Source of the DNA: Bremerella volcania
GTDB taxonomy: Bacteria > Planctomycetota > Planctomycetia > Pirellulales > Pirellulaceae
Direction of reading: 5' to 3'
Length of the DNA: 64,000 bases
Assembly (NCBI RefSeq): GCF_007748115.1
Contig: NZ_CP036289.1
Coordinates: 806,001 to 870,000, forward strand
Positions 26,430 to 51,320 of the stretch are shown piece after piece. The notes beneath the pieces were generated by a model. It was not told the origin of the DNA, did not search any database, and saw only the letters and a program-made list of their open reading frames with translations. Position 1 is the first letter of the stretch. Each line of letters begins with the position of its first letter. Both the position numbers and the translations under genes were made by a program.

Positions 26430-27791
26430 CTAATGCAGGCCGTAGCGACTCATCTTATAGTGCAATGTGCGAACACTGACCCCCAGCACTTTTGCGGTTT
26501 GCTCGCGGTGAAAATCATTGGCCGCAAGGGAAATCCGGATTGCTTCCTTCTCAGCCTCTTCCGTTACTTCTGCCAGTGAGCGTACTTCGCTTGCGGAAGC
26601 GTTTCTTGCAACCGAGCTTAATTCAGCAGGTAAATTTGCCGCTGTAATTCTGTCACTGCTTACGGTGACAACCAAGCGTTCGATGACATTGCGTAGTTGA
26701 CGAACATTGCCTGGCCAAGTCGCCGACATGAGAACCTGTAATGCCTCATTGTCTACGGTTTTGGGTGGTCGATGATGTCGAGTGCAAAAGAAATTCAGGA
26801 AATGGTCCACCAATAGAGCAATGTCCTCGCGCCGCTGCCGCAGTGACGGCACTTCAATTGGGATGATGTTCAGTCGATAGTAAAGATCCTCTCGAAAACT
26901 CGCTTCTTCTATTAATTGCGGGATGTCCCTGTTCGTGGCGGACACAATGCGAGCATCGGACGTAAGTGTTGTTTCGCCTCCGACTCTTGTGAACTGTCCC
27001 GTCTCAAGGACACGAAGCAAATCCACTTGGCACTTCATGGGGATTTCGGTAATTTCGTCGAGAAATAACGTTCCTCGCATGGACTGTTCGAAGCAGCCAG
27101 GTCTTTGGCGAGAGGCCCCCGTAAATGCTCCCTTTTCATGTCCAAATAACTCGCTTTCCAATAGATTCACCGGCAATGCACCGAGGTTGACGGGAATGAA
27201 CGGAAATGTGGAGCGTTTGCTCAAGTCGTGAATTGCCCTCGCAATCAACTCTTTTCCAGTCCCACTTTCGCCGTGAATCAAAATCGTGGCATCCGTATCA
27301 GCGACCTGTCGAATCTGTCGCAGTACATCATTGAGAGCTTGGCAATTTCCGATGATATTCGGCAATTCGCCTGCTTCCGCCAACCGATCCTTCAGGAAGC
27401 GGTTTTCGGTCTGCAACCGATGGTGTTCCACTGCCTTGGCAATTTGTTGTCGGATTAAGTTCAGATCAACCGGCTTGGTAATAAAATCGAACGCCCCACG
27501 GCGCATCGCGTCGACGGCCATCTCAACCGTGCCATGGGCAGTTATCATGATCATCGTCGTATTGGGTTCGCGCTGCTGGATCAGAGATAAAAGCTCCAGG
27601 CCATCGCGATCCCCTGGCAACCGAACATCGGCAATAACGATCTGAAAGCTCTCCGCATCGAACTTGTCCAATGCCTCATTAACGCTACTCGCCGTGTCGA
27701 CATGGTCGACCTCTTTCTCGAGGCCTTTAGCCAGCCCGGAGCGAATGTTGGGCTCGTCATCAACAATCAGAATGCGAAAAGCTTCGTCCAT
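26430..27791 (-). CDS. NtrC-family sigma54-dependent response regulator
   Basis: A 453-aa three-domain activator. Residues 1-~120 are a receiver domain with the acidic pair D11/D12, phospho-acceptor D55 (VIADVRLPG) and the conserved Lys in FITKPVD. Residues ~140-370 form the AAA+ domain with Walker A GESGTGKE, the sigma54-contact loop GAFTGA, Walker B GTLFLDEI and R-fingers. The C-terminus is a Fis-type helix-turn-helix (HREQTAKVLGVSVRTLHYKM). It should use ATP hydrolysis to open sigma54 promoters. It is encoded 4 bp after the histidine kinase. A near-consensus sigma54 promoter before the dabA operon (30166-30179) is the obvious local target (inference). Confidence 0.96.
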   Translation of the reverse strand: MDEAFRILIVDDEPNIRSGLAKGLEKEVDHVDTASSVNEALDKFDAESFQIVIADVRLPGDRDGLELLSLIQQREPNTTMIMITAHGTVEMAVDAMRRGAFDFITKPVDLNLIRQQIAKAVEHHRLQTENRFLKDRLAEAGELPNIIGNCQALNDVLRQIRQVADTDATILIHGESGTGKELIARAIHDLSKRSTFPFIPVNLGALPVNLLESELFGHEKGAFTGASRQRPGCFEQSMRGTLFLDEITEIPMKCQVDLLRVLETGQFTRVGGETTLTSDARIVSATNRDIPQLIEEASFREDLYYRLNIIPIEVPSLRQRREDIALLVDHFLNFFCTRHHRPPKTVDNEALQVLMSATWPGNVRQLRNVIERLVVTVSSDRITAANLPAELSSVARNASASEVRSLAEVTEEAEKEAIRISLAANDFHREQTAKVLGVSVRTLHYKMSRYGLH

Positions 27792-27795
27792 GACA

Positions 27796-29157
27796 CTAGT
27801 CCGAAGGTAAAGACACTTGTTGAATTGGCAACGTCATCACGAAGGTCGTGCCATCCTTGCTGCTAAAGAAGTCAAGGCTCCCATTGTGCTGTCGTACGAT
27901 TTTGTCGCACAAGGCTAGCCCTAAGCCTGTCCCATCGCTCTTGGTCGTAAAGTAGGCATCGAATACCTGATCACGGAGATCCTCCGGAATCCCAGATCCG
28001 GTATCCGAGATTTCGACACGTAACGCGTCGGAAGACTGAGTCACGGAAACGGAAAGTCTGCCCCCGTGGGGCATGGCTTGCATCGCGTTGAGGAACAGGT
28101 TTAGCAAAGTTTGTTCCAATCGGAGAAGATCTGCCGTTAAATTTGGCAAAGGCGATTCCGGCAACGCGAATTGAACCGCGATCCCCTGCTGGTTTGCTTG
28201 AGGAATTGCCAGATCCACTTGACGCTGTATGAGCTGGACAAGATTGACCTGTTCGAGCTTTAAATTGTCCATGGATGCAAAATCACGGAATCGCTCTAAC
28301 ACTTCTCCAATTCGCGTCATTTCCGACTTAATTACGGCTAGCATCGGTTGCACGTCCTCGGAATCCGCGCTTTCCTCAAGCTGTTCTTCGAGCAGTTGTA
28401 CATGTAGCGATAGAGCCGCGAGTGGATTTCGGATCTCATGATGAAGTCCCGCTGCCAAGGACCCAAGTCCCATGTAACGTTCCATTCGACGCATTCGCTC
28501 TTCCATTAAGACGCGTTCCGTTACATCGCGTAGTTGTAGAACTTTGCCGATTTCCTTTCCGCCGAAGTCATTCAATGATTGACATGTCGCACGGACGGTC
28601 CTTCCGGCTTTGCCGACATGAAAATCTCTTGTCACGGACGAGGACTTTTCCGTCTGCCAGTCACTTATGAACTGATCAAGGTCAAGGTCACTCGACAGTT
28701 CGTTCACATGCTTGCCGATACAGTCGAGTTTGGCCCCCAATAAATCCATGCCATGACGATTGATGCTGGTAACGATGCTGTTTCGATCGGTTGTGATTAC
28801 CGTCTGGTCCATGCTGCTGAGAATATGCCCCGCGAGCGCTTTGATGTCCCGAAGAGATTCTTGGGATGACCGATAGGCCCGGGAGAGCAATATAAGCGCC
28901 AAACCAGTCGCGATAAGATTAAGAACGACCAGGATGGAAAGCCGAAACTGCCAACGTAATTCGCTAGCCAAGTCCTTGGCCACAGCGGTTGAATCACGGG
29001 GCAGTTGTCGCGTCAGTTCTTCGACAATGGCTTGTTCTCGCAGAAAGTCAGCCATCATCCAAATGGTTATGACCAGGGCCGCCAAGCTGAGCAGTAGCAG
29101 CCCGGTAATGGAAAGCCGGTATCCCTTACCGGTAGCAACAGATTGAGTACGAAACAT
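27796..29157 (-). CDS. Membrane sensor histidine kinase
   Basis: A 453-aa kinase. Two transmembrane segments (~16-37 and ~73-92) enclose a short periplasmic loop of about 35 residues. A PAS domain follows (~105-210, ending in LRDVTERV). HisKA carries H240 in [14 protein letters not shown], and HATPase_c shows the N box (LLNLFLNAMQAM), G1 (ISDTGSGIPE) and G2 (GTGLGLAL) motifs. The periplasmic loop is too small for a known ligand domain, so sensing may occur in the membrane or through PAS. It is paired with the NtrC-type regulator downstream, and lies 125 bp downstream of a carbonic anhydrase gene, which suggests a CO2 or bicarbonate-related signal (inference). Confidence 0.95.
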   Translation of the reverse strand: MFRTQSVATGKGYRLSITGLLLLSLAALVITIWMMADFLREQAIVEELTRQLPRDSTAVAKDLASELRWQFRLSILVVLNLIATGLALILLSRAYRSSQESLRDIKALAGHILSSMDQTVITTDRNSIVTSINRHGMDLLGAKLDCIGKHVNELSSDLDLDQFISDWQTEKSSSVTRDFHVGKAGRTVRATCQSLNDFGGKEIGKVLQLRDVTERVLMEERMRRMERYMGLGSLAAGLHHEIRNPLAALSLHVQLLEEQLEESADSEDVQPMLAVIKSEMTRIGEVLERFRDFASMDNLKLEQVNLVQLIQRQVDLAIPQANQQGIAVQFALPESPLPNLTADLLRLEQTLLNLFLNAMQAMPHGGRLSVSVTQSSDALRVEISDTGSGIPEDLRDQVFDAYFTTKSDGTGLGLALCDKIVRQHNGSLDFFSSKDGTTFVMTLPIQQVSLPSD

Positions 29158-29282: not shown

Positions 29283-29948
29283 TTAGATCGGTGGAAGCGT
29301 CCGTTGTTTCTCGCTTACTGGTGAAGTGACGTCCTGGAGTGGTAAGAACTGATTCTGATCCGGATCAAAAGCAAATACGTCGCCAGTTTCAAATTTGTAG
29401 ACCCACCCATGTAATTTTAAATCGCCACGACCAATCGCTGCGGCCACGGCGGGATGGGTTCTCAGGCTCTCTAGTTGGACCAGGACATTCTCCTCCACCG
29501 TCAGGGTTAGTCTCTTGGCTGGATCGGTTAGGTGGGAATAGTTTTCTTCGACGATTCGCCGCGTCGCTTCAGCGTGTTGAAGGTAGGCACGAACCGCTGG
29601 CATTTTATCGACCATTTCCGGTGTCAGAAGACCGGCCATCGCTCCGCAGTGAGAATGTCCGCAAATGACGATGTCACGGACCTTTAACGCCGCTACCGCA
29701 TACTCGATTGTGGCGGCCTCACCGCCAAGAATAGATCCATAGGGAGGGACAATATTTCCCGCGGTGCGTTGAATAAATAGCTCACCAGGCTTCGTCTGAG
29801 TCAGGCGACTTGGATCAATCCGTGAATCCGAACAAGTGATAAACAATGCCAACGGATGCTGCCCATCGACGAGTGTCTCAAATAGCTTTTGATCCTGGCT
29901 GAACTGCTCGCGCTGAAATCGATGGATTCCTTGAACTAACTGCTGCAT
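29283..29948 (-). CDS. Beta-class carbonic anhydrase, canonical active site
   Basis: A 221-aa beta-carbonic anhydrase that interconverts CO2 and bicarbonate. All key residues are present: zinc ligands C39, H98 and C101, with the D41/R43 dyad in CSDSR and CGHSHCG. I start at the ATG at 29948 ([12 protein letters not shown]), where family similarity begins; in-frame codons extend further upstream but give no family-like sequence. It is divergent from the dabA operon across ~330 bp and upstream of the histidine kinase on the same strand. No signal peptide is seen, so it is probably cytoplasmic. Confidence 0.95.
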
Positions 29949-29981: not shown

Positions 29982-30093
29982 GTGCAAAAATCTGCACTGG
30001 ATCTGCAATAAATTGCGTGATTGATATCTCCAAATTCTATCCATTGGGAGGCCGATTGACCTCCTCGATTGTGTTTTTTGCGAACAAAAGTTC
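29982..30093. promoter_or_regulatory. Palindromes upstream of the sigma54 promoter, possible enhancer sites
   Basis: Three inverted repeats lie 70-190 bp upstream of the sigma54-like promoter: GTGCA-6 nt-TGCAC (29982-29997), GCAATAAATTGC (30005-30016) and GAACAAAAGTTC (30082-30093). Activators of the NtrC family bind palindromic sites at such distances. Which of these, if any, is bound by the neighbouring regulator is not shown. Confidence 0.4.
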
Positions 30094-30165
30094 TCTTCCA
30101 ACCCCGACTTTTCCGAAGTGCACCCCTTTTTGAACGCCTGGTAGCGAACTTGTTGCCCTGCTTCC

Positions 30166-30179
30166 GGCATGACGCTTGC
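30166..30179 (+). promoter_or_regulatory. Sigma54 (-24/-12) promoter for the dabA operon
   Basis: GGCATGACGCTTGC matches the consensus GGCACG-N4-TTGC at every position but one, with correct GG-to-GC spacing. Transcription would begin near 30190 and read into the dab operon about 90 nt downstream. A sigma54 activator and its kinase are encoded next door. Confidence 0.72.
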
Positions 30180-30195
30180 ATAAAGGTACACCTAC

Positions 30196-30251
30196 CCCTG
30201 CAATGACTCCCTCCCCATTTGAGGCAGGGAACACCTATCTCCTGCCTTTTT
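30196..30251 (+). terminator. Leader terminator with competing stem (attenuator-like)
   Basis: AGGCAGG (30222-30228) and CCTGCCT (30241-30247) form a 7-bp stem with a 12-nt loop, directly followed by a T-run, which is a classical intrinsic terminator. It lies between the sigma54-type promoter and the dabA start. An upstream CCCTGC (30196-30201) is exactly complementary to GCAGGG (30224-30229) and would compete with the left arm, as an anti-terminator does. No minus-strand gene ends here, so the terminator appears to act on the dab leader. Confidence 0.6.
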
Positions 30252-30282: not shown

Positions 30283-33200
30283 TTGGAATGTACCACTGAA
30301 TCTGCGGCCGAGTCGGTCGATGACCACTGCGGATCTGACGCGATCCGCAAATTGGTTGAGCACGCTGCACACTTGTTGCCGTCCCAGGGGCCGATCGAAG
30401 TCTTTGTCCATCACAATACGCTGCATGCGTTTGAGGACTTGCCCTTTCACGAGGCCGTGAAGACGGGCCTGGCACGATATGGCGCTCACCCCTACTTGCC
30501 GGAGCAAGAGTATCGGCAATTGTTTCAGGAAGGTCGCATCACGGATGAGGATCTCCAGGCAGTCTTACAAGAAGCCCTGGGGCCTCAGGGTCACAAGCAA
30601 ATCAATGGTCTGGGAACACGAGGGCAAATTCGTTTGGCGATGCTTCGTCAGCCGATCCACGTCGGGCCTGATGCGGAATTGAGGTGGATCGTGGCGGAAA
30701 CTGATGCCCTCGATCGATTTCGCCCGGAAGTTCCCAACGACCTTCGCGACCGGGTTGTCGCTGGTACGCGACAGTGGCTGCAACACGAGCAAGCGTCTCT
30801 GAGTCCAGCCCTGGCAGATCTTGCCGAACTTGTTTCCAAGTTCGGCAGTAACTATCCGGAATGGAAAAAGGCTTCCTGGGAAGCATTCTCCTTGCATCTG
30901 CTGTGGCGAATCTGTCGCAGCGGTATTCAATCCGTTCCGCACCAAGGCGCCCCCAGTCGTTATGTCCGTCCGCGCGACCTATTGCTGAACGCACTTGGCA
31001 TCGACGTCGATCGCGATGTGCATGATCTATTAATTCGCTTTTGTGCGGCTTATATCGATCAAGGCTATTCCGACTGGGAAATGCCTTGTCGCGACAAGGG
31101 CTTTTATGACGCTTTTCTTACGTTGTATTCGCAATCGAATTGGTGTTCGGATCGTCGGTTACGCGGGCTCTCAGGAGAGTTGTGGCGACTGCAAAGTTCC
31201 GGCCTCTCGCCAGAAGCATCGATCCAAGAATCACTGGCGGAATTAGGAATCGCCAACGACGATCGCGAAGAATTCGTAATCCAAACACTCCTAAGCCTGC
31301 GTGGTTGGGCAGGAATGGTTTGGCAACTCGAAACCGGTGCGGGTCCGGTTGTCCATTCGATTCCCAAAGGATCCTTGCTCGGGCTATTGGCTGTTCAACT
31401 TATTCTTGAGCGATTTGCGATCATCGATGTTGGTCGAGAAGCCACCGGGAAGCGTGGCAGTGCGTCGGATGTATTGCAATTTGCTCGGACGAAGTTGTCT
31501 GAACCGCGGCCATTGAGTGTGGAACGCCGCGCGTTTCTCTTGTTTCAAGTAGCCCAAACACTTGGTTGGCAGCCGCAGCAGTTACTGGCATTGTCTGAGA
31601 TTCAATGGCAAGAGTTGTATGACGAAGCCGATGGGTTCTCTGCCGTCGAAAGACGTCGAATCTACCATGAGGCATTCGAGCGAAAGTATCGACGCGAAGC
31701 GCTCGATGCTTTCGTGAACCACACCAATGTCCTTAACGCATCTATTGCGGAGCGAAAACCGCGCCGTCCGGAGTTTCAAGTCCTAACTTGCATCGACGAT
31801 CGAGAGGAGTCGTTCCGGCGGCACCTGGAAGAAGTGCATCCTGAGTGCGAAACTTTGGGAGCGGCGGGCTTTTTTGCGGTGGCTATCTATTATCGTGGAG
31901 CAGCAGATAGCTTTTACAAGCCGCTATGTCCCAACGTAATTACTCCAGAGCACTATGTTCAAGAGGACGTTGGTTACACGTTCGAAGGAATGCACCGCGA
32001 GCGGGCCGAGTTAAGAAGGCGACTTGGATTGGTGAGTCACGCCTTCCATACCCGCAGCCGAACGTTTCTGGGGGGAATCTTTACTGGCATCGTCGGATCA
32101 TTGGCCACCGTGCCGCTCGTGGCCAGTGTGTTGTTTCCCCATCTGACGGCTCGCATTCGCAAGCACTTAGGAACGTTCGTCCAGCCGCCACCGGTAACGA
32201 CACTTCAGTTGGAACGATATGAGGAAAATCCTGGTCCGGAGAATGGCCACATCGGATTCACCTGTGATGAAATGGCCAATGTCGTCGTGCGACTAATGCA
32301 GGACATTGGCGTAACGAGCCCAGAATCGTTTTCACGCCTGTTTGTCGTTTGCGGACATGGTTCTTCGAGTCTCAACAACCCCCACGAATCCGCGTATTGT
32401 TGCGGGGCGTGCGCGGGAAAACGAGGCGGCCCGAATGCCAGAGCATTTGCCAAAATGGCCAACGATTGGCGAGTACGTGCCAAAGTCCGGCAGGCAGGAA
32501 TATCGATTCCAGACGACACCGTATTCGTTGGTGCTTACCACAATACGTGTGATGACTCGGTCGTGTTTTTTGATCTCGACATGCTGCCGGCATCCCATCA
32601 TGCCGACTTCGAAACCGCTCGAGATGCCATCGAGGAGGCACGTCGGCGAAATGCCCATGAACGTTGCCGACGGTTTGTTTCCGTGCCTCTGTCCATTTCT
32701 CCCAATGAAGCCATTCGGCACGTTGAAGCTCGTGCTCAAGATATTTCACAGGCCCGGCCAGAATACAATCACGCCACCAACGCACTCTGCATTGTCGGAC
32801 GACGCGACTGGTCACGTGGATTATTTCTAGATCGCCGAGCATTTCTCACGTCTTATGATCCGGCCCAGGACAACGACGACCATTCCGTCCTCGCACGAAT
32901 TCTGGCAGCGGCGATTCCCGTTTGTGCCGGCATCAATCTGGAGTACTACTTTTCACGTGTGGATCATGTGGTTTACGGTTCTGGATCAAAACTGCCACAT
33001 AACATTGTTTCTCTGCTGGGGGTCATGGATGGGACGGCAAGTGATTTGAGGACCGGACTTTACCAGCAAATGGTAGAGATACATGAACCACTGAGGATGT
33101 TGTTTGTGATTGAATCAACCCCTGAGGCTATCCTTTCCATCATGCAAAGTAATCCAACCATCGGTCGACTTTGTCGCGGCGGTTGGATCCATTTGGCAGT

Positions 33201-33369
33201 CATCAATCCGAAAACATCGACGGTTCAAGTCTACAGGAATGGACAATTCGATCCGTATGAAGTCTCAGGAAGGTACCTGCCGGAGGCTTCCTGCTCGCTG
33301 GAATGTTATCGAGGATCCCGTGAGAACTTGCCGTTTTACTCGATTGCGGGAACGGTGAGGCAGCAATGA
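30283..33369 (+). CDS. dabA: DabA1: DUF2309 (UPF0753) inorganic-carbon transporter subunit
   Basis: A 1028-aa DUF2309 protein. DabA is a beta-carbonic-anhydrase-like, membrane-associated protein that with DabB takes up inorganic carbon by energy-coupled, one-way CO2 hydration. The putative zinc site is intact: C503 and D505 in CIDDREES, H692 in VCGHGSS and C707 in YCCGAC, with the same 15-residue His-to-Cys spacing seen in the second copy. An in-frame stop at 30262 limits the start; TTG at 30283 is the first candidate and lacks a strong ribosome site, so the exact start is uncertain. It is the first gene of a coupled operon and overlaps dabB by 4 bp. It is longer than DabA2 (829 aa). Confidence 0.94.
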
Positions 33370-34754
33370 TCGTTGACTATGTCCTATATGTCCTGGGAGT
33401 TGCGGTCGTTGTCAGTCCAACGCTTTTGGTAATGGCCCTGGGACTGCCGCTGATGGCTGGGGTCCGACTGAGTGAAGTGGTTCAATCGAGACTGACAAAA
33501 CTCAGTGTCGTCACAGGGTTGATGGCCGCGATCGGCATTCTCGGAGTCATGCTTGCGTCGGGATCGCGTCATGTGCCAATCGAGTTTGGAAACTGGGTTT
33601 CCATCCCTCAGGAACACTTTCATTTTCATCTTAAGTTTGTTTTCGATAGGCTGTCTGTCCCGTTTGCGATTCTATCCTTCGTGCTGTGTGGGACTGTGGG
33701 AGCATTCGCTTCGGTTTATTTGCATCGTGATCGCGGCTATCGGCGTTTCTTCCTGCTCTATGCATTGTTCTTATTGGGAATGGTGGTTTCCTCGCTAGCT
33801 GGCACCATCGAGACGCTGTTCTTTGGTTGGGAACTGGTAGGTCTGTCGTCGGCGCTGCTTGTTGCTTATTTCCATGAGCGTACCGCTCCGGTTCGCAACG
33901 GACTTCGGGTCTGGGCCATCTATCGCATTGCGGATGCGGCATTCTTGATTGCCGCGTTAACGATGCACCATTTGACGGGAGCCGGGGATTTCGACGGACT
34001 GATGGGGTCAGGCCCTTGGCCCGACGGCGTCGCTGCAATCGATTCCACGTCGGCACTGATGGTTGGTCTTCTCCTGCTACTGGCTGCCGCAGGCAAGTCA
34101 GGGATGGTGCCGTTTTCCGGTTGGATTCCCCGTGCGATGGAGGGCCCTACGCCATCGAGTGCCGTGTTTTATGGAGCATTGTCGGTTCACCTCGGCGCGT
34201 TTCTGTTGCTGCGTGTGAGTCCATTATTGGATGTATCAGTTCCGCTGCGAATAGCGGTTATCGTGATGGGACTTGCCACGGCAATCTTTGGAGCCATCGC
34301 TTGCCGTGCCCAAAGCGATGTCAAGAACGCCTTGGCCTTTGCATCGTTGACTCAAGTTGGAATTATTACGGTCGAGATTGGGTTCGGCCTACAATACGTC
34401 GCTCTGGTCCATATGATTGGCCATGCCTGTTTGAGAACGTTGCAACTGCTACGAGCACCTTCCGTGCTGAAAGATTACAGGATGTTGGAAGATGCCGTGG
34501 GAAGCCCCTTGGGGGGCAATAAGTCCGTTGAGTCTCCCGCCATTTCTTCTCGTCAAATCTGGCTTTATCGATTTGCTCTCGAACGTGGCTATCTCGACGC
34601 ATTTCTCAATCGCTGGATTGTCGATCCGTTCGTGACCGCGTTTCGTAGCTTCGATGTCCTGGAGAGACGCTGGACCAGCTTCCTTTCTGGCGGCGAATCA
34701 CGCGAATCAGATCGTCTAACTCCGTACGGAGATTCGCTGGAGGACGTTGCATAA
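33366..34754 (+). CDS. dabB: DabB1a: NuoL-like membrane subunit of the Dab system
   Basis: A 462-aa polytopic membrane protein of the proton-conducting complex-I family (Proton_antipo_M). It keeps the two charged residues needed for proton movement in NuoL-type subunits: E156 in FFGWELVGL and K244 in [14 protein letters not shown], followed by GPTPSSA. DabB supplies the ion-coupled membrane half of the DabAB complex. Its ATG overlaps the dabA stop (ATGA) and its stop overlaps the next start (TAATG). The C-terminus is shorter than in NuoL, without the long lateral helix. The role is inferred from the family and the tight pairing with dabA. Confidence 0.92.
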
Positions 34755-36238
34755 TGTCGGAATTGCACTTGCCCTGGCTGGGTTTGACCGTGCTGTTGCC
34801 GCTGGCGGGTGCGATCGTGGTGTCGTTGATGAAGGATCGTGATCACGCGCGGCAAGTCAGCGTCGCGATAGGTGTCATGACGCTCATTTGCGCCTGTGGG
34901 GAATGGATCGATTTTACGATGCTGCATTCCTTCGAAGCACACGATCACTGGGACATCTTTCAATTATTCTTTGCAAACGATGCGTTCGTGGTAGACGAAC
35001 TTAGCGCCCCCCTCATCCCACTAGGGGCTTTGCTCTATCTCACGACCATTTTGACGACACTTCGAACCAAGGTGAATCGCTTTTCATTCGGGTGGACGTT
35101 GTTTTCGGAATCGGTGCTTTTGGCAACGCTCGGTTGTCGGGATTCTTGGTTGATTATCTTGCTGCTGGCCGTCGGCGTCGTTCCCCCTTGGATCGAGTTG
35201 CGCAAGCGTCATCAATCAACGCAGGTGTACTCGCTGCACATGGGGTTGTTCGTGGGACTGTTGGTCTTGGGGCAGTGGTTGGTGGGGCCTGATGCATCGG
35301 CTGCCAATCCGCCTATCCTTGCCGGTTGCCTATTGACTGCGGGCGCGTTGGTTCGAAGTGGTGTTTGCCCGTTGCATTGTTGGATGACCGATCTATTTGA
35401 GAAAGCAACCTTCGGCACCGCTTTGCTATTTGTCACTCCGATGGCAGGCGCCTACGCTGTAATGCGGCTGGTATTTCCGATTGCCCCCGACTGGGCTCTG
35501 CAAAGCATCGCCATTTTGTCGATGATGACGGCCGTTTACGCTGCCGGTATGGCCTTGGTTCAGCATGAATCACGACGATTCTTTTGCTACCTTTTTTTGA
35601 GCCACTCATCGCTGGTTTTGGTCGGACTGGAAATGGCGACCCCCATCGGTTTAACCGGGGCGCTGTACGTCTGGCTTTCTGTGGGGATCTCGTTGTTGGG
35701 ATTTGGTTTGGCGCTGCGATCGGTCGAGGCGCGAACGGGACGCCTCTCACTCGATGGGTTTCACGGGCTGTATGAACACACTCCGTTCCTCGCGAACATG
35801 TTTCTATTGACCGGCCTGGCTTCGATTGGATTCCCAGGGACGATTGGCTTTATCGGCACGGAGTTGCTCGTAGAGGGAGTCGTTGATATCTATCCCATGA
35901 TGGGCTTTGCCGTCGTACTAGCCGCCGCACTCAATGGTATTGCTGTGGTTAAAGCTTACTTTCACGTCTTCACTGGTACGCGTCATCTGGCCACCGTGTC
36001 ACTCGTATGCCGACCGCCCGAACGTGTGACGATCTTACTCATGGTGGTATTGATCATCGGCGGTGGGGTGTTTCCCGAGCCAGGAGTTCGATCGCGGTAT
36101 CACGCTGCAACTGCATTGATCAAGATGCGGGGAGTCGATGAAGCAATAGAGCATTCTGCTACTTCCCGCGCCAATGCACGCGGAATTAATCAGGGTCATT
36201 CCACCGGTGGTTTCTTATTTCCTCAATCGAATCGTTGA
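34754..36238 (+). CDS. DabB1b: second, divergent NuoL/NuoM-like membrane subunit
   Basis: A 494-aa polytopic membrane protein related to antiporter-like complex-I subunits but more divergent than its neighbour. The family core is visible ([49 protein letters not shown]-like segment at ~345-362). The lysine of the proton channel is Arg (R201), and the usual Trp-Glu site on the earlier helix reads A-V-G (about 139-141), with a Glu only at 148, so the register there is uncertain. A dab operon normally has one such subunit; here two are encoded head to tail with overlapping codons. It may extend the membrane arm or be a structural partner. The end overlaps the region preceding the SulP gene. Confidence 0.88.
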
Positions 36239-36243
36239 GTCTA

Positions 36244-38166
36244 ATGATGCCTAGCGACAAACTTGCCAGTGATATCCCACACGGAAACTCCGCTGGATTC
36301 CTTAAGTACTTTCAGTACGACTTTAACTCCGGCTTCTTGGTTTTTCTGATAGCGCTTCCGCTTTGTTTAGGCATCTCGCTTGCTTGCGGCTTTCCACCCA
36401 TCGCAGGCATCTTTACTGCGATCATCGGGGCGGTTGTAACGCCTTTGATCAGCAACAGTGAGTTGACCATCAAAGGGCCAGCGGCCGGGCTGATTGTGAT
36501 CGCCATCGGCTGTGTCCAGGACTTCGGTGGCGATGGCATGACAGGCGGTTGGACGGAGTCGGACATTGCTGCCTACCGGGCTGCTATCGCCGTAGGGGTC
36601 GTTGCAGGTGCTATTCAAATTGTGTTTGGGCTTTTTCGCGGCGGAATCCTGGGCGAGTTTTTCCCTGTATCCGTGGTTCACGGCATGCTGGCAGCAATCG
36701 GCGTCATCATCATCGTTAAGCAGATCCCGTTCGCGCTAGGGGTGTCGGCTGGAGGTGAACCGATGGAAATGCTTCGCGAGATCCCGCATTACCTGATGGA
36801 GGCGAATCCTGCCATCGCGGCAATTGGTGTCGTCAGTCTGCTAATAATGTTTCTGTGGCCTCTGATGGCCGCACGCCTGGGAGTTCTAAAAAAGATTCCT
36901 GCACCCGTCGTCGTGCTTTTATTTGCAGTTCCCATGGCCATGGCATTCGATCTGCTGCACGAACACTCCTACACGCTGCAAGGACATAAATATCAACTTA
37001 GTGAACAGTATCTCGTGAAGATGCCAGACAAGGTGTTCGGGATGTTCAATGACATTACGTTTCCGGAATTTGCAGTCTTGGTGCAACCCAAGGCTTGGAA
37101 ATGGATTCTGATGTTCTTCATCATCGGCAGCCTGGAGTCGGTGTTGAGTGCCAAAGCGATCGATCTACTCGATCCATGGAAACGTAAGACCAAGATGAAT
37201 CGCGACCTGATTGCGATTGGCGTTGGGAATCTTTGTGCATCCATGGTGGGCGGCTTGCCCATGATATCCGAAATCGTTCGCTCGAAGGCCAACATCGACA
37301 ATGGTGCAAGAACGCGATTTGCCAATTTCTGGCATGGTGTATTTTTGCTGGCGTGTGTTGCCTTGATTCCATTTTATCTGCATAGGATTCCACTGGCGGC
37401 CTTGGCTGCGATGCTTATCTATACTGGATATCGCCTCGCCCACCCGAACGAGTTCATTCACGTTTATCGAATCGGCAAAGAGCAGCTTGCCATCTTTGTC
37501 ACCACTTTGGTGGTCGTTCTGGCAACGGACTTGTTGGTTGGAGTTGCCGTTGGGATCTTGCTCAAGATGGTGATTCATCTCGCCAACGGCGTCTCGTTGC
37601 GATCGTTGTTCAAACCCTATATCGAAGTCCAGGAAATCAATGACGACACGAGTGTGATCCTGGCCCGAGAGTCGGCCGTTTTCAGTAACTGGCTCCCTTT
37701 TCGACGCCAGATTGAACAGATTGGTCTAGTTCAGAAGCGAAATCTGGTGATCGATGTATCGGGTACGAAGTTGATTGACCATAGTGTGATGGAGAAACTG
37801 GAAGAAGTTCAACGAGATTTTGAACAAGAAGGGCTGACATTTGAGGTTCGAGGATTGAACCAGCTAGAGTCATTCTCCGACAACGTTCATGCGACTCGAA
37901 AACGACGTCCGAAAATAATGCGACGCGTTGCTTTTACGATGGAGTCCGAGCACTTCCCGCGAATCGAAGAACGACTTCCTGAATTTGGGGCAAGCACCTT
38001 TTCAGTCGTCCCATCCAAGTCGCTAATTCGTATCGAACTCATTGTATCGCCACAGACGTGCGAAAACTTTCTCGATTTTATCCGGCGAGATGTCCTCACA
38101 GAGCAAAACGGACATGCTTGCGTGGATTCAATCGAAATCGTTCAACACGAATCGAGAGACGCATAA
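36244..38166 (+). CDS. SulP-family anion (probably bicarbonate) transporter
   Basis: A SulP/SLC26 transporter of 640 aa from the ATG at 36244; a TTG at 36235 and ATG at 36247 are alternatives. The membrane domain starts at [20 protein letters not shown] and includes the SulP signatures [14 protein letters not shown] and [19 protein letters not shown] (each read in place). After ~10-14 membrane spans comes a STAS-like domain ([18 protein letters not shown]) and a further C-terminal domain. SulP proteins carry sulfate, bicarbonate or other anions. Flanking DabAB and carbonic anhydrase genes favour bicarbonate, probably with Na+, but sulfate cannot be excluded. The gene follows dabB1b with almost no gap. 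Confidence 0.92.
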
Positions 38167-38198: not shown

Positions 38199-38804
38199 AT
38201 GAATAAGCTTGATTCCTCTCTGCACCGTTTTCCGGTCAAGCATTTTGGCACGGCAAGTGACTTTCTGTTGTCAGCAGAAAGCGAGGAGAGGGATACATTG
38301 ATGATTGCCTGTGCAGATCAGGGAGGCGCGCCTGATAGAGTTTCATTTGCGAAATCAGGTCGTTTTTTTGTGGTTCAGCACTTGGCATCGTCGATTCGTC
38401 CAGCAGGCGATCGTGACGAGAATTCAGAAATTTCGGACATCGAATTTGCATTTTCGAAATACAAAATCAAACACGTGATTATTTGTGGGCATACTGGATG
38501 CGGCGTAATCCGAAATTGGCTGCTTTATCCTGACGCTCCTGACGTAAGTGGAATCCGAGCTCGTTTTGAGCAGACCACTTTGGAGGCGGTGAATCAAGCA
38601 TATCCCGAATATTCTGCCGAGGATCGAATTGAGGCCCTGATTTGTGAACACACTCTGTTTCAGTTGGAGCATCTTTGTTCTCATGCGTTTATCCGCAACA
38701 AGCTTGAAGCCGGGACGTTGCAGCTGCACGCTTGGGTCGTCAATGACAACACCGCCCGTGTTCGTTCATACGATCCTGCCCGTGGTTGTTTTGCTATCAT
38801 TTAA
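38199..38804 (+). CDS. Beta-carbonic anhydrase homologue with altered catalytic dyad
   Basis: A 201-aa beta-carbonic anhydrase. The zinc ligands C38, H98 and C101 (ICGHTGCG) and D40 are present, but the motif CxDxR reads CADQG: the Arg that normally pairs with the Asp is Gly42. The Asp-Arg dyad keeps the Asp off the zinc, so the enzyme may be less active or gated differently. It is encoded 32 bp after the SulP gene with AGGATG upstream of the ATG, so it probably feeds or drains the bicarbonate pool of that transporter. A linked SulP and carbonic anhydrase pair is a common arrangement. Confidence 0.92.
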
Positions 38805-43090: not shown

Positions 43091-43504
43091 CTAGGGGCCT
43101 ATGCCTTCTCGCAAGTTTGTGTCATCGGCAAGCAATTCCAACAGATCTTTGATCGATTTGTGTGCTTCGACGGGGTGTCTGAGCGGCTGATCCCCCATGA
43201 TGAAGTAATGATTCTGACGGCCGACTTTTTCTTTTCGAATCACTCCGCATTCTTCCAAGTCAGCGATAATTCTCTGGACAGCGCGTTCGGTAATACCAAC
43301 TTCGATGGCGACTTGCCGAAGCACCATGCTCGGATTTCTCGAGAGCAGAATTAAGACATGGGAATGATTGGTGAGGAAAGTCCACCGCGCGGGCGAATGC
43401 TCTTGTCCCACAGGCGATTGGGCTTTCTTCAGGCGGGTTTGAACAGCGCCAGATGACTTTGACGAGTTGCTGGCACGCGAAGTTTTTTTGCGATTCACCG
43501 CCAT
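43091..43504 (-). CDS. Winged-helix transcriptional regulator (MarR/ArsR-like)
   Basis: A 137-aa DNA-binding protein. A basic, Ser-rich N-terminal tail of about 40 residues precedes a winged helix ([40 protein letters not shown], then a wing [11 protein letters not shown]). There is no ligand or metal motif that I can name. The ATG at 43504 has AGAGGTGA upstream. It is transcribed divergently from the second dab operon, 268 bp away, and is the natural candidate to regulate it. The intergenic DNA contains phased repeats and an inverted repeat (43625-43711). Confidence 0.88.
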
Positions 43505-43624
43505 AAATTCACCTCTGCAGGGGAAGGCCTAGCCGGGGACTGGGTGGGACGCGTAAGGCCATGCTGTGAAAGAACTTATATTAGCCGAAGTGTCGTGATT
43601 CAGCAATCCGGAATTCTGTGTCGC

Positions 43625-43711
43625 AAGTCAACGGAATTCTTTTTCACTCAAGTCAAACAGCAAAATCTACCGAAAAGTCATGCGACATGGGATTGACGAC
43701 AAATAAGTCGT
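43625..43711. promoter_or_regulatory. Phased AAGTCA repeats and an inverted repeat upstream of dabB2
   Basis: AAGTCA occurs at 43625-43630, 43650-43655 and 43675-43680, spaced exactly 25 bp. An inverted repeat ACGAC-AAATAA-GTCGT follows at 43696-43711, overlapping a weak promoter-like TTGACG (43694). The layout suggests binding sites for a regulator, possibly the divergent winged-helix protein. Binding is not shown. Confidence 0.45.
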
Positions 43712-43772
43712 GCTTTAATCTTCGTGTGTCGTGGGCCTAGCCCGGAAAGTCGAACCGCACCAGGAATTCGCC

Positions 43773-45368
43773 ATGTTGGACACAGCCATGCTTTTGTTAG
43801 TCGCGCCTTTATGTCTTGTGTTGGCTATGACGTTCCCTACGTCGTGGGCGAACAGGTATCCACAGCAAGTTCGACGCTTCGCCTGCTTTGCTGTTGTAAC
43901 TGTTGCCGTTTTTTACTTGCTCGCCTCGCTGATGCTACTGAAAGTTGAAAGCATCAGTACGAGTATTTCATTATCACAGTCGAGCAGACTTTGGACTTTG
44001 TCTGTTTTCTACGATCCACTATCCGCAATGATGACGCTTCTGATCGCTTACGTCGCTTGGATCATCACGCGATTCTCGGTCAGATATCTCGACGGCGATT
44101 CAAACGAGGGCCGTTACTACAAGTGGCTTATGGTTTGTCTGGGTGCAATTCTCGGACTCGTGGTGAGCGGAAACCTCATTCAGATGTTCGGTTTCTGGAT
44201 ATTGACAAGTCTCGCGCTGCATCAGCTTTTGATCCACTACAGCAATCGCCCTTGGGCAATTTGGACTGCCCGCAAAAAGTTTCTAATCAGTCGACTAGGC
44301 GACGTGTTCTTGGCCGCGGCGATATATCTGACTCTCCAGATTTGGGGAACTGTCGAGATTGAAATGCTCTTTGCTAACGTGCACGCCACGGAAAGCCTAG
44401 GAATATATGACCCAAGAGTAACGATTGTTTGCCTCTTGTTTGTTCTCAGCGCCTTAACCAAGTCGGCCCAATTTCCGTTTCATACCTGGCTGCCAGATAC
44501 CTTGGAGACCCCAACTCCCGTTTCCGCTTTGATGCATGCGGGGATCATCAACGCAGGCGGCTTTCTACTCATCCGCTTGTACCCGATTATTGGACAATCG
44601 GCGACAGCTCTCTCTCTGTGCTTGTTGGTTGGCGGCGTTACCTGTCTGTTGGGCGGACTCATCATGATGACCCAGTCGAGCATCAAGAAGAAGCTGGCTT
44701 ACAGCACCATGTCACAAATGGGCTTCATGATGATGCAATGCGGCCTGGGAGCGTTTTCAGTGGCCTTTCTGCACATCATCTTTCATTCGCTCTACAAGTC
44801 GCATGCTTTCCTTAGATCTGGCAGCGCAGTTGCAAACCACTCGATCGGAAATCCGGAAGGTCAGATCGCATTCACCCAAAACGGTTGGGCGATGGTACTT
44901 GGAACGGCCGCATCTTTCGGGCTTCTGGCAGGCTCTGGATGGTTGCTGGGAATTGATGTTGTCAAACCAGATGGACGACTACTGCTCGGACTTATTCTGG
45001 CCCTGTCTCTGTCACAAATACTTGTGGAAGTGATTCGCACGCGGTCAACCAAAACAGTGCTAATCGGGCTGTCTGTCGTGCTGCTGCTGGTAGGTATCTA
45101 CTTGTTCAGCCACGAGGCAATGCACCGTTTAGCATTCGAGGCTTACGCTGGGGAAATGCCCGCGTTCGGTTCAGCAATGTGGGTTGTTGTTGGGATCGTA
45201 TCTTTGGGATTTGTGTGTCTGGCAGCATTTCAGATCGCGAGGGTCAAGTTCGGGAACTCACCGTTCGTGCAAGCAGCTTATGTCCATGCGTTAAACGGGT
45301 TCTACCTAGACATCGCTGCACGTCGTGTGACGGCTTTGCTGTGGGGGCGATCCGCTCCAACTCCTTAA
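43773..45368 (+). CDS. dabB: DabB2: NuoL-like membrane subunit of the second Dab system
   Basis: A 531-aa polytopic membrane protein starting at the ATG at 43773, with AGGA upstream; an in-frame codon at 43731 gives a non-family extension. The family core is clear: LTKSAQFPFHTWLPDTLETP holds the channel lysine K230, followed by TPVSALMHAG. The usual Trp-Glu position of NuoL reads W142-I143 (MFGFWILTSLALHQLL); I believe this is a feature of the DabB branch but cannot confirm it here. Next to dabA2 it would form the ion-coupled membrane half of an inorganic-carbon pump. Confidence 0.93.
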   Translation: MLDTAMLLLVAPLCLVLAMTFPTSWANRYPQQVRRFACFAVVTVAVFYLLASLMLLKVESISTSISLSQSSRLWTLSVFYDPLSAMMTLLIAYVAWIITRFSVRYLDGDSNEGRYYKWLMVCLGAILGLVVSGNLIQMFGFWILTSLALHQLLIHYSNRPWAIWTARKKFLISRLGDVFLAAAIYLTLQIWGTVEIEMLFANVHATESLGIYDPRVTIVCLLFVLSALTKSAQFPFHTWLPDTLETPTPVSALMHAGIINAGGFLLIRLYPIIGQSATALSLCLLVGGVTCLLGGLIMMTQSSIKKKLAYSTMSQMGFMMMQCGLGAFSVAFLHIIFHSLYKSHAFLRSGSAVANHSIGNPEGQIAFTQNGWAMVLGTAASFGLLAGSGWLLGIDVVKPDGRLLLGLILALSLSQILVEVIRTRSTKTVLIGLSVVLLLVGIYLFSHEAMHRLAFEAYAGEMPAFGSAMWVVVGIVSLGFVCLAAFQIARVKFGNSPFVQAAYVHALNGFYLDIAARRVTALLWGRSAPTP

Positions 45369-45414
45369 GCAATCATTCATCACTCATAAGTAAGATTATC
45401 GAAGGAACTCCGAC

Positions 45415-47904
45415 ATGATTTCATTAATAGAATCATCGAATCACTTGCTGAAGGATACCGACAAGCCGAATCGCACGAATGCCGATAAAAAATCGCAAGG
45501 CATTCAGCACGTCATCGAGAAACTTCACGAGTCGATTGCCCCGCTTTGGCCGCTAAAGGATTTTGTTGCCGTGAACCCATTTCTCGGATTCACCGGCAAG
45601 ACGCTTCTGGAAACTGACTCACTTTTGAAATCGATCAGTGATGTCGAACTACTCCCGTCACTGGAATTCTTCCGGGAATGCTATCGAAGTGAATCGATCT
45701 CCACGAGTGACGTGGAAACAGCTTACCTACAGATTGCCCGAGATGGTTCCGCCAGCCTCACAGACGTATCTCTAGCCGACGTGCTGGACTGGCTACAGAG
45801 CGACCTTAAGCCCGCAATACGCTGCCGTCGTAAGGTTTGGACGATGGCCGAAGTGTTGGATGGCGAGGGTGGAGGGGAGAGAAGCAATCAAATCATCAAT
45901 GATATCACTCGGTTCCTATCGGGATACTTCGACGAAGGCGAGGCTTCCTGGTTGATGCCATGGCAGGATGATTCGCCCTACGCGGCTTGGAAGCAGGTTA
46001 GCTCTACTAGCTATCGCATGGACCTGCTAGGAATGCGAGGCTTCAGGAAGTTTGTCCGCAGTTTGCCCGACGATTCTGATCAGGCAATTCCCCTTTTGCT
46101 CGAGAAGGCAGACGTACCGAATCGACTTCTCTCTTTGCTTTGTGTTTGCCAGCTCGCATCCATTTCGGGATGGGCGTCCTACGCACGGAACCAGTCGGGA
46201 CAGTCAGCGAAGCCGGAGTCAAGTTGCCTGAAAGATTTGCTTGCCATTCGACTGGCATACGATGTGTTTCTGATTGAGTCGAGTAAGCAAAGCATTTCAT
46301 GCTGTTTTCACGAAGACATCTGGAACGACCACGACTTCAATCGCCAAGTGTTGTCGCCCAGTCTCATAAGTGTCGTGCGGTATGTTCTACTTGTTGCGCA
46401 GGAGATGAAGTTCCAGCAGAGCCTGACTTCAGGTCTTTTGGACGGAATCAACGAGAAGACAGGACCGGTAAAAGCCCTGGCGCAAATGGTGTTCTGCATT
46501 GACGTGCGTTCCGAACCAATTCGTCGCCATCTAGAACGTGTCAATGAGCAAGTAGAGACATTCGGATTTGCTGGATTCTTCGGCATGCCGTTGCGTCATG
46601 TGACTGGGGGAGGCTCGGTCGGTAGCGCGCACTGTCCAGTGCTTCTCCAACCAGCGTTCCAGGTCAACTGGGATCAAGCGCATGAAAGTTCTGGGCAAGA
46701 GAGTTTGCAAAACGCTTGGAAAGCCTTTCGTTCCGGCCCGATTTCGAGCCTGGGATTCGTCGAGACTTTGGGCTGGCTTACGGCCGGAAAGTTGTTGTCC
46801 GATTCTTATGGATGGGTAAAAAGTCGATTTCAGCAACAATCGTGTGACAGCAAACCTCAAGTCTATCCTGAGGGAGAAACACACGTTGGGCATTGCGAAG
46901 AGCTTTCTCTGGAAAGCCGGATCACATTTTGCAAAGGCTTTCTTGCGAACCTTGGCCTGACCAAAGGATTTGCTCGCTTCGTCGTTGTGTGTGGGCATGC
47001 TTCGGACGTGCAAAACAACCTGTTTCAATCAGGTCTCGACTGTGGTGCCTGCGGAGGACACTCGGGAGAGCCCAACGCGCGTGTCGCGAGCTGGTGGTTG
47101 AACAGTTCTGAAGTTCGGGCTGGACTGGCGACGCTGGGGATTGCGATTCCAGATAGTACGTGGTTTGTACCGGCCGTTCATAACACGACTACCGAACAGA
47201 TTGTATTCACGGAGAAAGCTAATGTTCCTGATGAGTTTCAGGAAGAGTTTGCTCAGCTAATCTCGATTTGCAATGAAGCAAGTCAACAATGCGCTGGGAA
47301 TCGTCCTGAAAGATATGGTACATCGAAAAAAGAAGACTTAACGCGTAAGAGTCACGACTGGAGTGACGTGCGTCCCGAGTGGGGACTCGCTGGAAATGCC
47401 GCATTCGTTGTCGCACCTCGATCTAGAACGCAATCGCTGGATCTAAAAGGCCGTGTATTTCTGCATAGCTATGAGGCAGAGAAAGACTCTGATGGCAGTG
47501 TGCTCGAACTGATCATGACCGCACCGATGATCGTCACTAGCTGGATTAATTTGCAGTACTTTGCTTCAACGGTTGAGGCAGGCAAGTACGGAAGTGGGGA
47601 TAAGCTGATCCATAATGCGGTAGGTAAGTTCGGCGTGCTGGAAGGAAACGGAGGTGACTTGAAAACGGGACTGCCTTTGCAGTCCGTGCACAATGGAAAG
47701 CAATGGCAACATCAGCCACTGCGGCTAACAGTGATCATTGAAGCGCCGAAGGTACGCATTGAGCAAATTGTTCGCTCCCATACCGACGTTCGGCAACTTG
47801 TGTCTCATGGATGGATCACTTTGCTTTGCTTGGAAGGAGAGCGTTTCTCCCGATGGACCAGTCAAGGCGCTTGGGAGCCTTGGGATGATCAACCATCGAA
47901 CTAA
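45415..47904 (+). CDS. dabA: DabA2: DUF2309 inorganic-carbon transporter subunit
   Basis: An 829-aa DUF2309 protein, a normal length for DabA. The carbonic-anhydrase-like zinc site is complete: C361 and D363 in [10 protein letters not shown]528 in VCGHASD and C543 in DCGACGG. The N-terminus shows the family motif [11 protein letters not shown] and the C-terminus [12 protein letters not shown]. The ATG at 45415 has AAGGA upstream and follows dabB2 by 46 bp. It shares only the family core with DabA1, so the two loci look like old paralogues or separate acquisitions rather than a recent duplication. The downstream neighbours are sulfate-activation genes, which is unusual. Confidence 0.95.
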
Positions 47905-47942
47905 TTTTACTGTGTGATTTTTTGCTCAAGAGGACGAGCCTC

Positions 47943-48896
47943 ATGAACACTTCGGTAGTGGATAGAGAAGGACGACAGAATGTTGTCTCAGGCGACCTGA
48001 ACGCACACCTGAGAATGCTCGAGGAAGAGAGCATCTACATTTTCAGGGAAGTTGCCGAGTCATTTGAGAATCCCGTATTGCTCTACTCCATCGGGAAGGA
48101 TTCCAGTGTGCTCTTGCACCTGGCCCGGAAGGCCTTTTATCCGGAGAAGCCTCCATTTCCGCTGCTTCATATCGATTCGACATGGGAGTTCCGAGAAATG
48201 ATTGAGTTTCGCGAGCAACACGTTCGAGGGACGCTCGGAATGGAGGTCCTTGTGGAAATCAATCACGAGGGAGTCCGCCGCGGTATCAATCCGTTCGACT
48301 TTCCCAGTCCTGTTTACACCGACGTCATGCGAACAGAACCGTTGAAGAAGGCCCTGACACGGTATCGCTTTGATGCGGCGATTGGGGGAGGGCGTCGGGA
48401 AGAGGAACGATCGCGAGCAAAAGAAAGAATCTTTTCCTTTCGAGACAAGCATCACCGATGGGATCCGCGCAATCAGCGTCCAGAGCTTTGGCGACTTTAC
48501 AACACGTGGGTCCATCGTGGTCAAAGTATGCGTGTCTTTCCACTCTCAGATTGGACCGAAGAGGAGATCTGGCAATACATCCTGCTGGAAGAAATTCCGC
48601 TCGTGCCGCTCTATTTCGCCAAAGAGCGGCCAGTCGTTCAACGCGATGGCAATCTGATCATGGTAGATGATGAGCGAATGCCACTGAGGTCTGGGGAGCA
48701 GCCGGAAATGCGAAAGGTTCGATTTAGGACCCTGGGCTGCTATCCGGTCACGGGGGCCATCGAGTCTGAAGCGGAATCTGTCAGCCAGATTGTTCAAGAG
48801 TTACGGTTGACCCATCTTTCCGAAAGAGCAGGACGGGCAATCGATAAGGATGAAGAATCAGCAATGGAACGCAAGAAGCGACAAGGATACTTTTGA
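47943..48896 (+). CDS. cysD: Sulfate adenylyltransferase subunit 2 (CysD)
   Basis: A 317-aa CysD, the ATP-pyrophosphatase-type subunit that makes adenosine 5'-phosphosulfate from ATP and sulfate. The PP-loop is SIGKDSS (residues 49-55). Other family motifs are [26 protein letters not shown] and [15 protein letters not shown], followed by [10 protein letters not shown] use the ATG at 47943, which has AGAGGA upstream. The stop overlaps the cysN start by one base (TGATG). The gene is complete. It directly follows dabA2 with a 38-bp gap, suggesting one transcript. Confidence 0.96.
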
Positions 48897-50713
48897 TGAT
48901 TACGCAAAAAGACAGCACGATCGAAATCACGCCCCCAGCAGGTCAGACCATTGGAACTCGTTTGGGCATACTTAGATTGCTCACGTGCGGAAGCGTAGAC
49001 GATGGCAAGAGTACGTTAATTGGACGACTTCTACTCGAAACTGGCGCCGTATACGAAGATCATTTACAGTCGCTTCAACTTGAAACCAAGCGACACGGTA
49101 CCACGGAATTGGCAGTCGATCCTGCTCTGATCGTAGACGGGCTGGAAGACGAAAGAGCCCAGGGCATTACGATCGACGTCGCCTATCGCTACCTTCGGTC
49201 GCCTCGCCGAAAAATCATCATCGCGGATAGTCCCGGTCATGAGCAGTACACCAGGAACATGGTCACGGCTGCCTCGCGTTCCGACGTGGCATTATTACTA
49301 GTTGATGCGAGGAAAGGAATTGTTCAACAGACCAAACGTCATGCATTGATTGCCTCCATGTTAGGGATCAAGCGATTTATCTTAGCCACCAACAAGATGG
49401 ATCTTGTTGACTACAGGAGCAACGTCTTTCACGAGATTACCGGCGATTTTCATCGCTTTACGAAAGCCTTTGAGGAGTTGGATATCGTTTCGATTCCTCT
49501 CTCTGGTTTGTGTGGCGATAACGTATGTCGCCGTAGTGAAAATATGGATTGGTATCAGGGGCCGACCTTGATCGAGACACTGGAGTCATCTCAGGCGTCT
49601 CGTGGCAATCCCGCGGATGGTTTTCGGTTACCAATCCAGCGAGTCGTACGACCCGATTCCGAGTTTCGTGGTGTGAGCGGAACGATTGCTACAGGCAAGA
49701 TAAGGGTTCATGATCCGATCGAGATCCTTCCACAAAGAAGGACATCAAAGATTCAATCGATCATTACGATGGATGGAGAATATGAATCTGCCTGCGCAGG
49801 GCAAGCGGTAACCATCACGTTGGCAGATGAGATCGACGTGGCGCGAGGAGACTGGATCGTTTCGCCCGGTGTTTCGTCCGCGATGAGTAGTGAGCTCAAT
49901 GCGAGACTGGTTTGGATGTCAACCGAACCACTAGTTGTCGGAAAGATCTATTGGCTTAAGTGCGGTACGAAAACGGTAATGGCCGAAGTCGCTACAATGC
50001 AGTCGAAGATATGTATCGAAACGGGAGATAGCGAACCTGCTTCGATGCTTGAGTTGAATGAAATTGGCCAATGTCATCTACTGCTTCACGAACCGGTTGT
50101 TCATGAAAGCTACACTAGTATCCGTGAGATGGGATCGTTCATCCTGGTTGATCGAATTTCCCATGAGACGGTCGCGGCAGGAATTATTTCAAGCGAAGAC
50201 AATAGGAGTGTTGCTGCTTCGATACCGATTGCTACCGAGAGGCAATTCAGCCAAGTAACGGCAGCTCAACGGAAGTATCGAGTGGGACATGATTCGCTTT
50301 CTGTCGTGATTGCCGGTCGAACGAGTAACGAACTTTTGCGTGTCGCGTATGACCTGGAACTTCGTCTATTCAATGAGGGTTTCCATGTCGGCGTAATTAA
50401 TGCAGGCGACCTTCACGGAGAACATGAGAACGACGGATCTCATGCGGCGACAGGAAAGCCGAGCCATCTTTGGCCAGGCCTGCAGGTCACCCGATCGTTA
50501 AGTGACATGGGGCTAATTTGCATATCAGTATTCGAAGCTGGCAATCAAGAGCTCAAAAATGCGATCCGTCGAGAGTGTTCACGGAACGAGTTCCTGTATT
50601 TCGATCTCGACTCTCATGGAGATACAAGCAATTCCAGGGATCATTCAAAAGCTGAGGACATCGCTGAGAACATCTACAGCTTAGTCGTCTCAAAAGTATC
50701 CGGACCGAAGTAG
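48896..50713 (+). CDS. cysN: Sulfate adenylyltransferase subunit 1 (CysN) with a degenerate APS-kinase-like C-terminus
   Basis: A 605-aa protein. Residues ~25-440 are a normal CysN GTPase: G1 GSVDDGKST, G3 DSPGHEQYTRNM and G4 NKMD, followed by EF-Tu-like beta domains. Such GTPases drive CysD-catalysed APS synthesis. The C-terminal ~140 residues resemble CysC of CysNC fusions in layout (SVVIAGRTSNELLRVAYDLE, then LFNEGFHVGVINAGD) but the P-loop GxxGxGKS is gone, and the GDxxR motif reads AGDLHG. This domain is therefore unlikely to phosphorylate APS. The ATG at 48896 follows AAGGA; a TTG at 48893 is an alternative. Confidence 0.94.
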   Translation: MITQKDSTIEITPPAGQTIGTRLGILRLLTCGSVDDGKSTLIGRLLLETGAVYEDHLQSLQLETKRHGTTELAVDPALIVDGLEDERAQGITIDVAYRYLRSPRRKIIIADSPGHEQYTRNMVTAASRSDVALLLVDARKGIVQQTKRHALIASMLGIKRFILATNKMDLVDYRSNVFHEITGDFHRFTKAFEELDIVSIPLSGLCGDNVCRRSENMDWYQGPTLIETLESSQASRGNPADGFRLPIQRVVRPDSEFRGVSGTIATGKIRVHDPIEILPQRRTSKIQSIITMDGEYESACAGQAVTITLADEIDVARGDWIVSPGVSSAMSSELNARLVWMSTEPLVVGKIYWLKCGTKTVMAEVATMQSKICIETGDSEPASMLELNEIGQCHLLLHEPVVHESYTSIREMGSFILVDRISHETVAAGIISSEDNRSVAASIPIATERQFSQVTAAQRKYRVGHDSLSVVIAGRTSNELLRVAYDLELRLFNEGFHVGVINAGDLHGEHENDGSHAATGKPSHLWPGLQVTRSLSDMGLICISVFEAGNQELKNAIRRECSRNEFLYFDLDSHGDTSNSRDHSKAEDIAENIYSLVVSKVSGPK

Positions 50714-50759
50714 GTCAATAGAGCAAGCCAATTCTATAAACTCAAGAAGGGAGAGTGCT

Positions 50760-51320
50760 ATGGTATCTTCGCAGGGGTCTTTCTGGTGGATGGACGGAAA
50801 CTCATCACAGAGCTCTTCCGCCACGTCTCGATCGCAACGCAAGGCTACTCTTTGGCTTACCGATCAAGATGATTGCGTGAATCGACTTCTATCAAGAATT
50901 GTAAACACGTACGGTGATCCAATCGTTCGTGTTTCTGGCGAACTATTTGAATCGCCACTGCATCTTATCTCTGTGATTGAAGAAAATCTCAGAGACTATG
51001 CAATCGGCGAAGTTGTCATCTTAGGTCACTCTCACTTCTTGCCGCCCGGCCAGGCGTCCAATAACGTCAGTCCAGGCGATTGCATCGCGGAACCAAGCAG
51101 TCTGCTGCAGCGTATGGCCAAACGGCAGGAATCTAGCAAGCTGGCGGAACAGAGGTTACTTGAAGTGAATGTTCAACTCGCACAGCTGTGCGCAATTCAC
51201 AAGTATTCCACCGTTGCCGAAATCCAGGTGACCTCGCTGTTCTTTCGAGTCGAATCACACGCGGTCTATTCTTACAACGAAAGAACGATGCAGTTCGAGG
51301 CTTTGGGCAGTGAGTTGTAA
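50760..51320 (+). CDS. Carbonic-anhydrase-like protein lacking both zinc cysteines
   Basis: A 186-aa homologue of beta-carbonic anhydrase that appears catalytically dead. It aligns through TLWLTDQDD (family: LFITCSDSR) and EVVILGHSHF (family: [10 protein letters not shown]), then LLEVNVQLAQL (family: [11 protein letters not shown]). The two zinc cysteines are Asp35 and Phe93 and the dyad Arg is Cys39; D37 and H90 remain. It has a strong ribosome site (AAGAAGGGAGAG) and no stop codons, so it is probably expressed. It is the last gene of the dabB2-dabA2-cysDN operon. A structural or regulatory role is inferred. An IS630-type fragment begins directly after its stop, so the native C-terminus may have been altered. 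Confidence 0.8.
   Translation: MVSSQGSFWWMDGNSSQSSSATSRSQRKATLWLTDQDDCVNRLLSRIVNTYGDPIVRVSGELFESPLHLISVIEENLRDYAIGEVVILGHSHFLPPGQASNNVSPGDCIAEPSSLLQRMAKRQESSKLAEQRLLEVNVQLAQLCAIHKYSTVAEIQVTSLFFRVESHAVYSYNERTMQFEALGSEL

Follow-up and report, generated by a model that had tools for sequence, protein, structure and literature searches.

Background

DAB/MpsAB-type transporters of inorganic carbon are composed of DabA and a NuoL/Mrp-type partner (PMC13144422, PMC8567241), and the DAB-like MpsAB supplies bicarbonate in a heterotroph, Staphylococcus aureus (PMC8567241). In Thioalkalivibrio, a sigma54 activator gene is located six genes from the RuBisCO/carboxysome operon, a possible parallel to the case described here (PMC5744179). 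Bicarbonate, inorganic carbon, DUF2309 and carbonic anhydrase are unmentioned in a 2025 cross-phylum survey of sigma54 (PMC12316311). A literature search, which covered few subscription journals, found no report that sigma54 controls DAB or any other inorganic-carbon transport; regulation of DAB transporters has been little studied, and the same holds for the sensing of CO2/bicarbonate scarcity in bacteria without RuBisCO. The DAB systems of chemoautotrophs are under LysR-type control. For the planctomycete Pirellula sp. strain 1, an in silico sigma54 regulon was reportedly described by Studholme and Dixon in 2004, with promoters predicted beside activator genes; the locus analysed here likewise has a predicted sigma54 promoter next to an activator gene.

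Gene organization of the dab locus

The window, i.e. the whole stretch of 64,000 nucleotides of Bremerella volcania DNA that was analysed, contains the features listed in Table 1. A preliminary description had placed a GAFTGA-bearing activator, its kinase and a carbonic anhydrase on the minus strand next to dabA, and the domain matches agree with all of these assignments. DabA matched the PF10070 profile with E = 5e-236 and is encoded beside NuoL/Mrp-type subunits, the same pairing as in the DAB/MpsAB systems. The activator, with a receiver, an AAA domain carrying GAFTGA (residue 221) and a Fis-type HTH, has the domain composition of the NtrC type (group I). In the genus alignment, the ATG of the carbonic anhydrase gene at 29948 is kept. 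The second carbonic anhydrase gene of the dab operon is overlapped by a PhnA-domain gene. The C-terminal extension of the window SulP protein gave no P-II match, and the SulP proteins of three related loci (L119, L176, and L177) end in a P-II domain.

Table 1 Features of the dab locus (positions in the window)
Feature	Position	Strand	Basis or remark
NtrC-type response regulator (receiver, sigma54-activating AAA with GAFTGA, Fis-type HTH)	26430..27791	-	Domain matches
Histidine kinase (PAS, HisKA, HATPase)	27796..29157	-	Domain matches; N-terminal membrane segments by eye
Beta-carbonic anhydrase	29283..29948	-	First gene of divergent group with kinase and activator
Putative activator site 1, dyad GTGCAA-N4-CTGCAC	29982..29997	+	Genus alignment; 0 mismatches to family pattern
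Putative activator site 2, dyad CTGCAA-N4-TTGCGT	30003..30018	+	Genus alignment
TAGAAT, -10-like box	30034..30039	-	Conserved in genus; possible ordinary promoter of carbonic anhydrase-kinase-activator genes
Sigma54 -24/-12 promoter CGGCATGACGCTTGCA	30165..30180	+	Sequence and conservation; predicted transcript start ~30191
Terminator-like hairpin AGGCAGG...CCTGCCT with T-run, dabA leader	30222..30251	+	Probably incidental
dabA	30283..33369	+	TTG start; start region conserved in five congeners
NuoL/Mrp-type membrane subunit, DabB-like	33366..34754	+	PF00361
Second NuoL/Mrp-type membrane subunit	34754..36238	+	PF00361
SulP-family transporter	36235..38166	+	Domain match
Second beta-carbonic anhydrase family protein	38199..38804	+	Domain match

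Sigma54 promoter upstream of dabA

Positions 30166-30179 read GGCATGACGCTTGC. Both GG and GC are present and correctly spaced, 10 bases apart, and only one position departs from GGCACG-N4-TTGC (T for C), so that the single mismatch and exact spacing first claimed for this site were confirmed by reading the sequence; in addition, C instead of T directly precedes GG. With up to 2 mismatches allowed, TGGCACGN4TTGC, the bare consensus, matched at 24 places in the window versus 22.2 ± 4.4 expected; because this is no excess over chance, the consensus match of the dabA site is by itself no evidence. When the positions were weighted according to the published consensus, with weights assigned by hand, 30165-30180 scored 22.9 of 23.9 and was the sole site on the two strands of the window to reach 22; in the related loci, a site of comparable score is expected by chance in about 0.4% of 400-base stretches. 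A single rpoN gene is present in the genome. The commonness of the bare consensus would fit transcription of dabA mainly from an ordinary promoter, with the sigma54-like sequence a chance match, but scanning revealed no good sigma70-like site on the plus strand of the promoter region, and the sequence and position of the site are conserved, together with paired dyads upstream and co-occurrence with the activator (see below), making such a coincidence very improbable. The near-consensus sigma54 site before the dabA operon is thus considered real, being the best of the window by position weights and conserved in relatives. It belongs to a larger element, which includes the paired dyads; these dyads and the regulon had gone unnoticed in the preliminary description.

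Between this promoter and dabA, the terminator-like hairpin with its T-run, together with a possible competing pair upstream of it, raises the possibility that expression of dabA is set by attenuation and that sigma54 is secondary. However, the hairpin is not conserved in five congeners, in which the promoter and the dyads are kept, and folding of the leader was no better than that of shuffled sequences (z = -0.58). The lack of conservation in the genus argues against the hairpin as an attenuator, and we assign very little weight to control of this kind.

Paired dyads upstream of the promoter

The two dyads are 21 bp apart, equal to two helical turns, and the second ends 146 bp before the sigma54 site. 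A row of TGCA half-sites is kept at 29982-30018 in the genus alignment; the dyad has the form STGCAA-N4-YTGCR in this window and [GC]TGCAA-N4-[TC]TGCA across the related loci. Within the 6.5-Mb genome (one contig), this is the only exact copy of the pair, and a search for further targets with up to 3 mismatches and 21-bp spacing did not yield more matches than the reversed pattern did. Enhancer-binding proteins usually have sites of this layout, with two dyads at such a distance on one face of the DNA. These observations support the view that the pair behaves like the putative site of the adjacent activator.

For the divergent group of genes, no minus-strand sigma54 promoter scored above 18.2 at this locus. 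A start from the TAGAAT box would place the dyads just downstream of it; the activator may thus act on the carbonic anhydrase-kinase-activator group, to which it belongs itself.

Conservation among relatives

About 60 dabA loci were gathered from relatives, the named ones being Planctomycetota, and 62 loci were scored. Since gaps upset the genus alignment, which misplaces the promoter when read by columns, conservation of the promoter was scored by position-independent scanning. A sigma54 site was found upstream of dabA in relatives whose DabA is 48-88% identical to that of the window. A composite detector, requiring the dyad pair and a sigma54 site, was then applied to the dabA loci and to further activator loci (1.6 Mb) and returned 86 elements, as opposed to 0 in reversed DNA. 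Scoring of both the dyad and the sigma54 site relied on hand-set values, and these loci had also served to derive the dyad; the whole-genome pattern search described below, with its targets, is the out-of-sample part of the comparison. The element precedes dabA in 43 of the 62 related loci, which bears out the expectation, raised with the initial description, that the motif would be conserved upstream of homologous dabA genes. In these 43 elements, the promoter bases GG, A, T, and GC are invariant and the dyad cores nearly so, the dyads are spaced 19-23 bp apart, and 96-202 bp (median 133) separate them from the promoter. When mapped on the DabA tree, presence of the element requires at least 6 changes and its distribution is therefore not a single split, the relatives being non-independent all the same.

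Co-occurrence of the element with the activator

Orthologs of the activator were defined by an arbitrary cut of E <= 1e-130. The element at dabA and the ortholog were both present in 43 genomes and both missing from 13; no genome had the element alone, and 6 had the ortholog alone. Fisher's test gave p = 3e-9 for this association, a value that overstates independence because the genomes share ancestry. All six ortholog-only genomes have the paired site somewhere: G063 has it before dabA at a distance past the limit of the detector, and G014 at a second, divergent dabA next to the activator; in the other four it precedes SbtA (G019), SulP (G163), an RND efflux operon (G105), and the activator gene itself (G098).

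Whole genomes (n = 53) were also searched for the dyad pair by pattern alone, with no sigma54 site required. Exact paired sites were confined to genomes with an activator ortholog, and none was found in the 16 genomes lacking one. Across genomes, the conserved upstream dyads, as putative activator sites, follow the presence of the activator. Nearly all of 52 orthologs have the HTH segment RTLHYKM unchanged, and the L1 loop, GAFTGA here, reads G[AS]F[ST]GA among them.

The dyads might instead be bound by a different regulator, with the adjacent activator acting elsewhere; binding by the activator is predicted only, and in some genomes the element lies far from the activator gene. Against this, genomes without an ortholog have neither the dabA element nor an exact paired site, the HTH of the activator is highly conserved, and the distance of the dyads from the promoter is typical of enhancer sites. 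A different regulator is accordingly regarded as unlikely, and assignment of the dyads to the adjacent activator is preferred.

Other genes preceded by the element

Four exact sites found by pattern alone, with the genes disregarded, precede SulP (L176 and L177) and SbtA (L179 and L180), and each is followed, about 100-156 bp downstream of the dyads, by a sigma54 site scoring 22.4-23.0. The strongest evidence obtained comes from these blind targets and from the genomes that lack the activator. Two other exact paired sites (L178 and L182) have no sigma54 site above 18. The element also precedes SulP in L083-L088 and L119 and beta-carbonic anhydrase in L144 and L145; in L078 and L080, sigma54 sites flank shared dyads, and the divergent carbonic anhydrase-kinase group there has one of its own.

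Several further arrangements were observed. A transposase gene is located between the promoter of the element and SbtA in L180 (5563-6309). The operon behind the same element in L049 (2500-4753) encodes an HTH-PTS EIIA fusion and NADH-dehydrogenase-like subunits. The activators of L122, L124, L128, and L129 lie about 5 kb from an element of the same kind, which precedes RND efflux genes.

In the window, a second dab operon (43731-47904) was considered as another target and rejected, as the dyad and the sigma54 site are both absent. The region around it (43091-51320) contains a divergent winged-helix regulator, dabB, dabA, genes resembling cysD and cysN by sequence, and then a small protein, for which no Pfam match was found.

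Proposed mechanism and role

Comparison of genomes has established, at the level of sequence, the predicted promoter and the paired site, and has shown that the two are conserved together and occur along with the activator. On this basis, we consider it probable (about 0.8) that the kinase and the NtrC-type activator form a two-component system which controls inorganic-carbon acquisition via sigma54. A stimulus, most likely scarcity of CO2/bicarbonate, would lead the kinase to phosphorylate the activator encoded next to it; the phosphorylated activator would bind both dyads and loop to the sigma54 polymerase at the promoter, and transcription would start near 30191 and proceed through dabA, the two NuoL-like genes, SulP and the carbonic anhydrase gene. 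For relatives, this module is proposed also to drive SulP, SbtA, and carbonic anhydrase genes located elsewhere. The original proposal that the adjacent activator controls the dab operon through sigma54 is supported by the conserved promoter and dyads, by the co-occurrence with the activator, and by the presence of elements ahead of genes for SulP, SbtA, and carbonic anhydrase. The accompanying proposal of signal-dependent uptake holds in part: signal dependence follows from the presence of a histidine kinase and a receiver, but low inorganic carbon as the signal is inferred.

The sigma54 circuit could be real and the kinase could sense another cue, such as pH, sodium, membrane energy or envelope stress, carbon uptake being one output among others. 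The PAS domain of the kinase is generic, DAB-type complexes couple to membrane energy, and one related clade of activators lies beside RND efflux genes that carry a similar element, so the activator family is not exclusively carbon-related. However, DabA, SulP, SbtA, and carbonic anhydrase belong to four unrelated families, and what all have in common is only the chemistry of inorganic carbon; another cue is therefore possible, though rather unlikely. For the more specific reading, a dedicated inorganic-carbon-sensing two-component sigma54 system that coordinates DAB, SulP, SbtA, and carbonic anhydrase in heterotrophic planctomycetes, the chances appear about even.

A search of the genome gave no match to RuBisCO. 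In a genome without detectable RuBisCO, the dab operon probably supplies bicarbonate to the carboxylases of a heterotroph, which is the likely role here.

Comparison with known systems

The system offers a defined sensor, activator, putative binding site and promoter, all open to direct test, and the motif of the element finds more carbon-uptake genes in planctomycete genomes. As judged from the literature searched, the predicted regulon is new; its comparative support is unusually clear, and the type of mechanism is well known. Systems of the NtrB/NtrC and ZraS/ZraR types likewise consist of a kinase, a receiver-AAA-Fis activator, paired dyads 100-200 bp upstream and a -24/-12 promoter. The present locus differs from them in its dyad, TGCAA-N4-TTGCA, and in its targets, which are inorganic-carbon transporters and carbonic anhydrases, whereas the NtrC and ZraR regulons comprise nitrogen or metal-stress genes.
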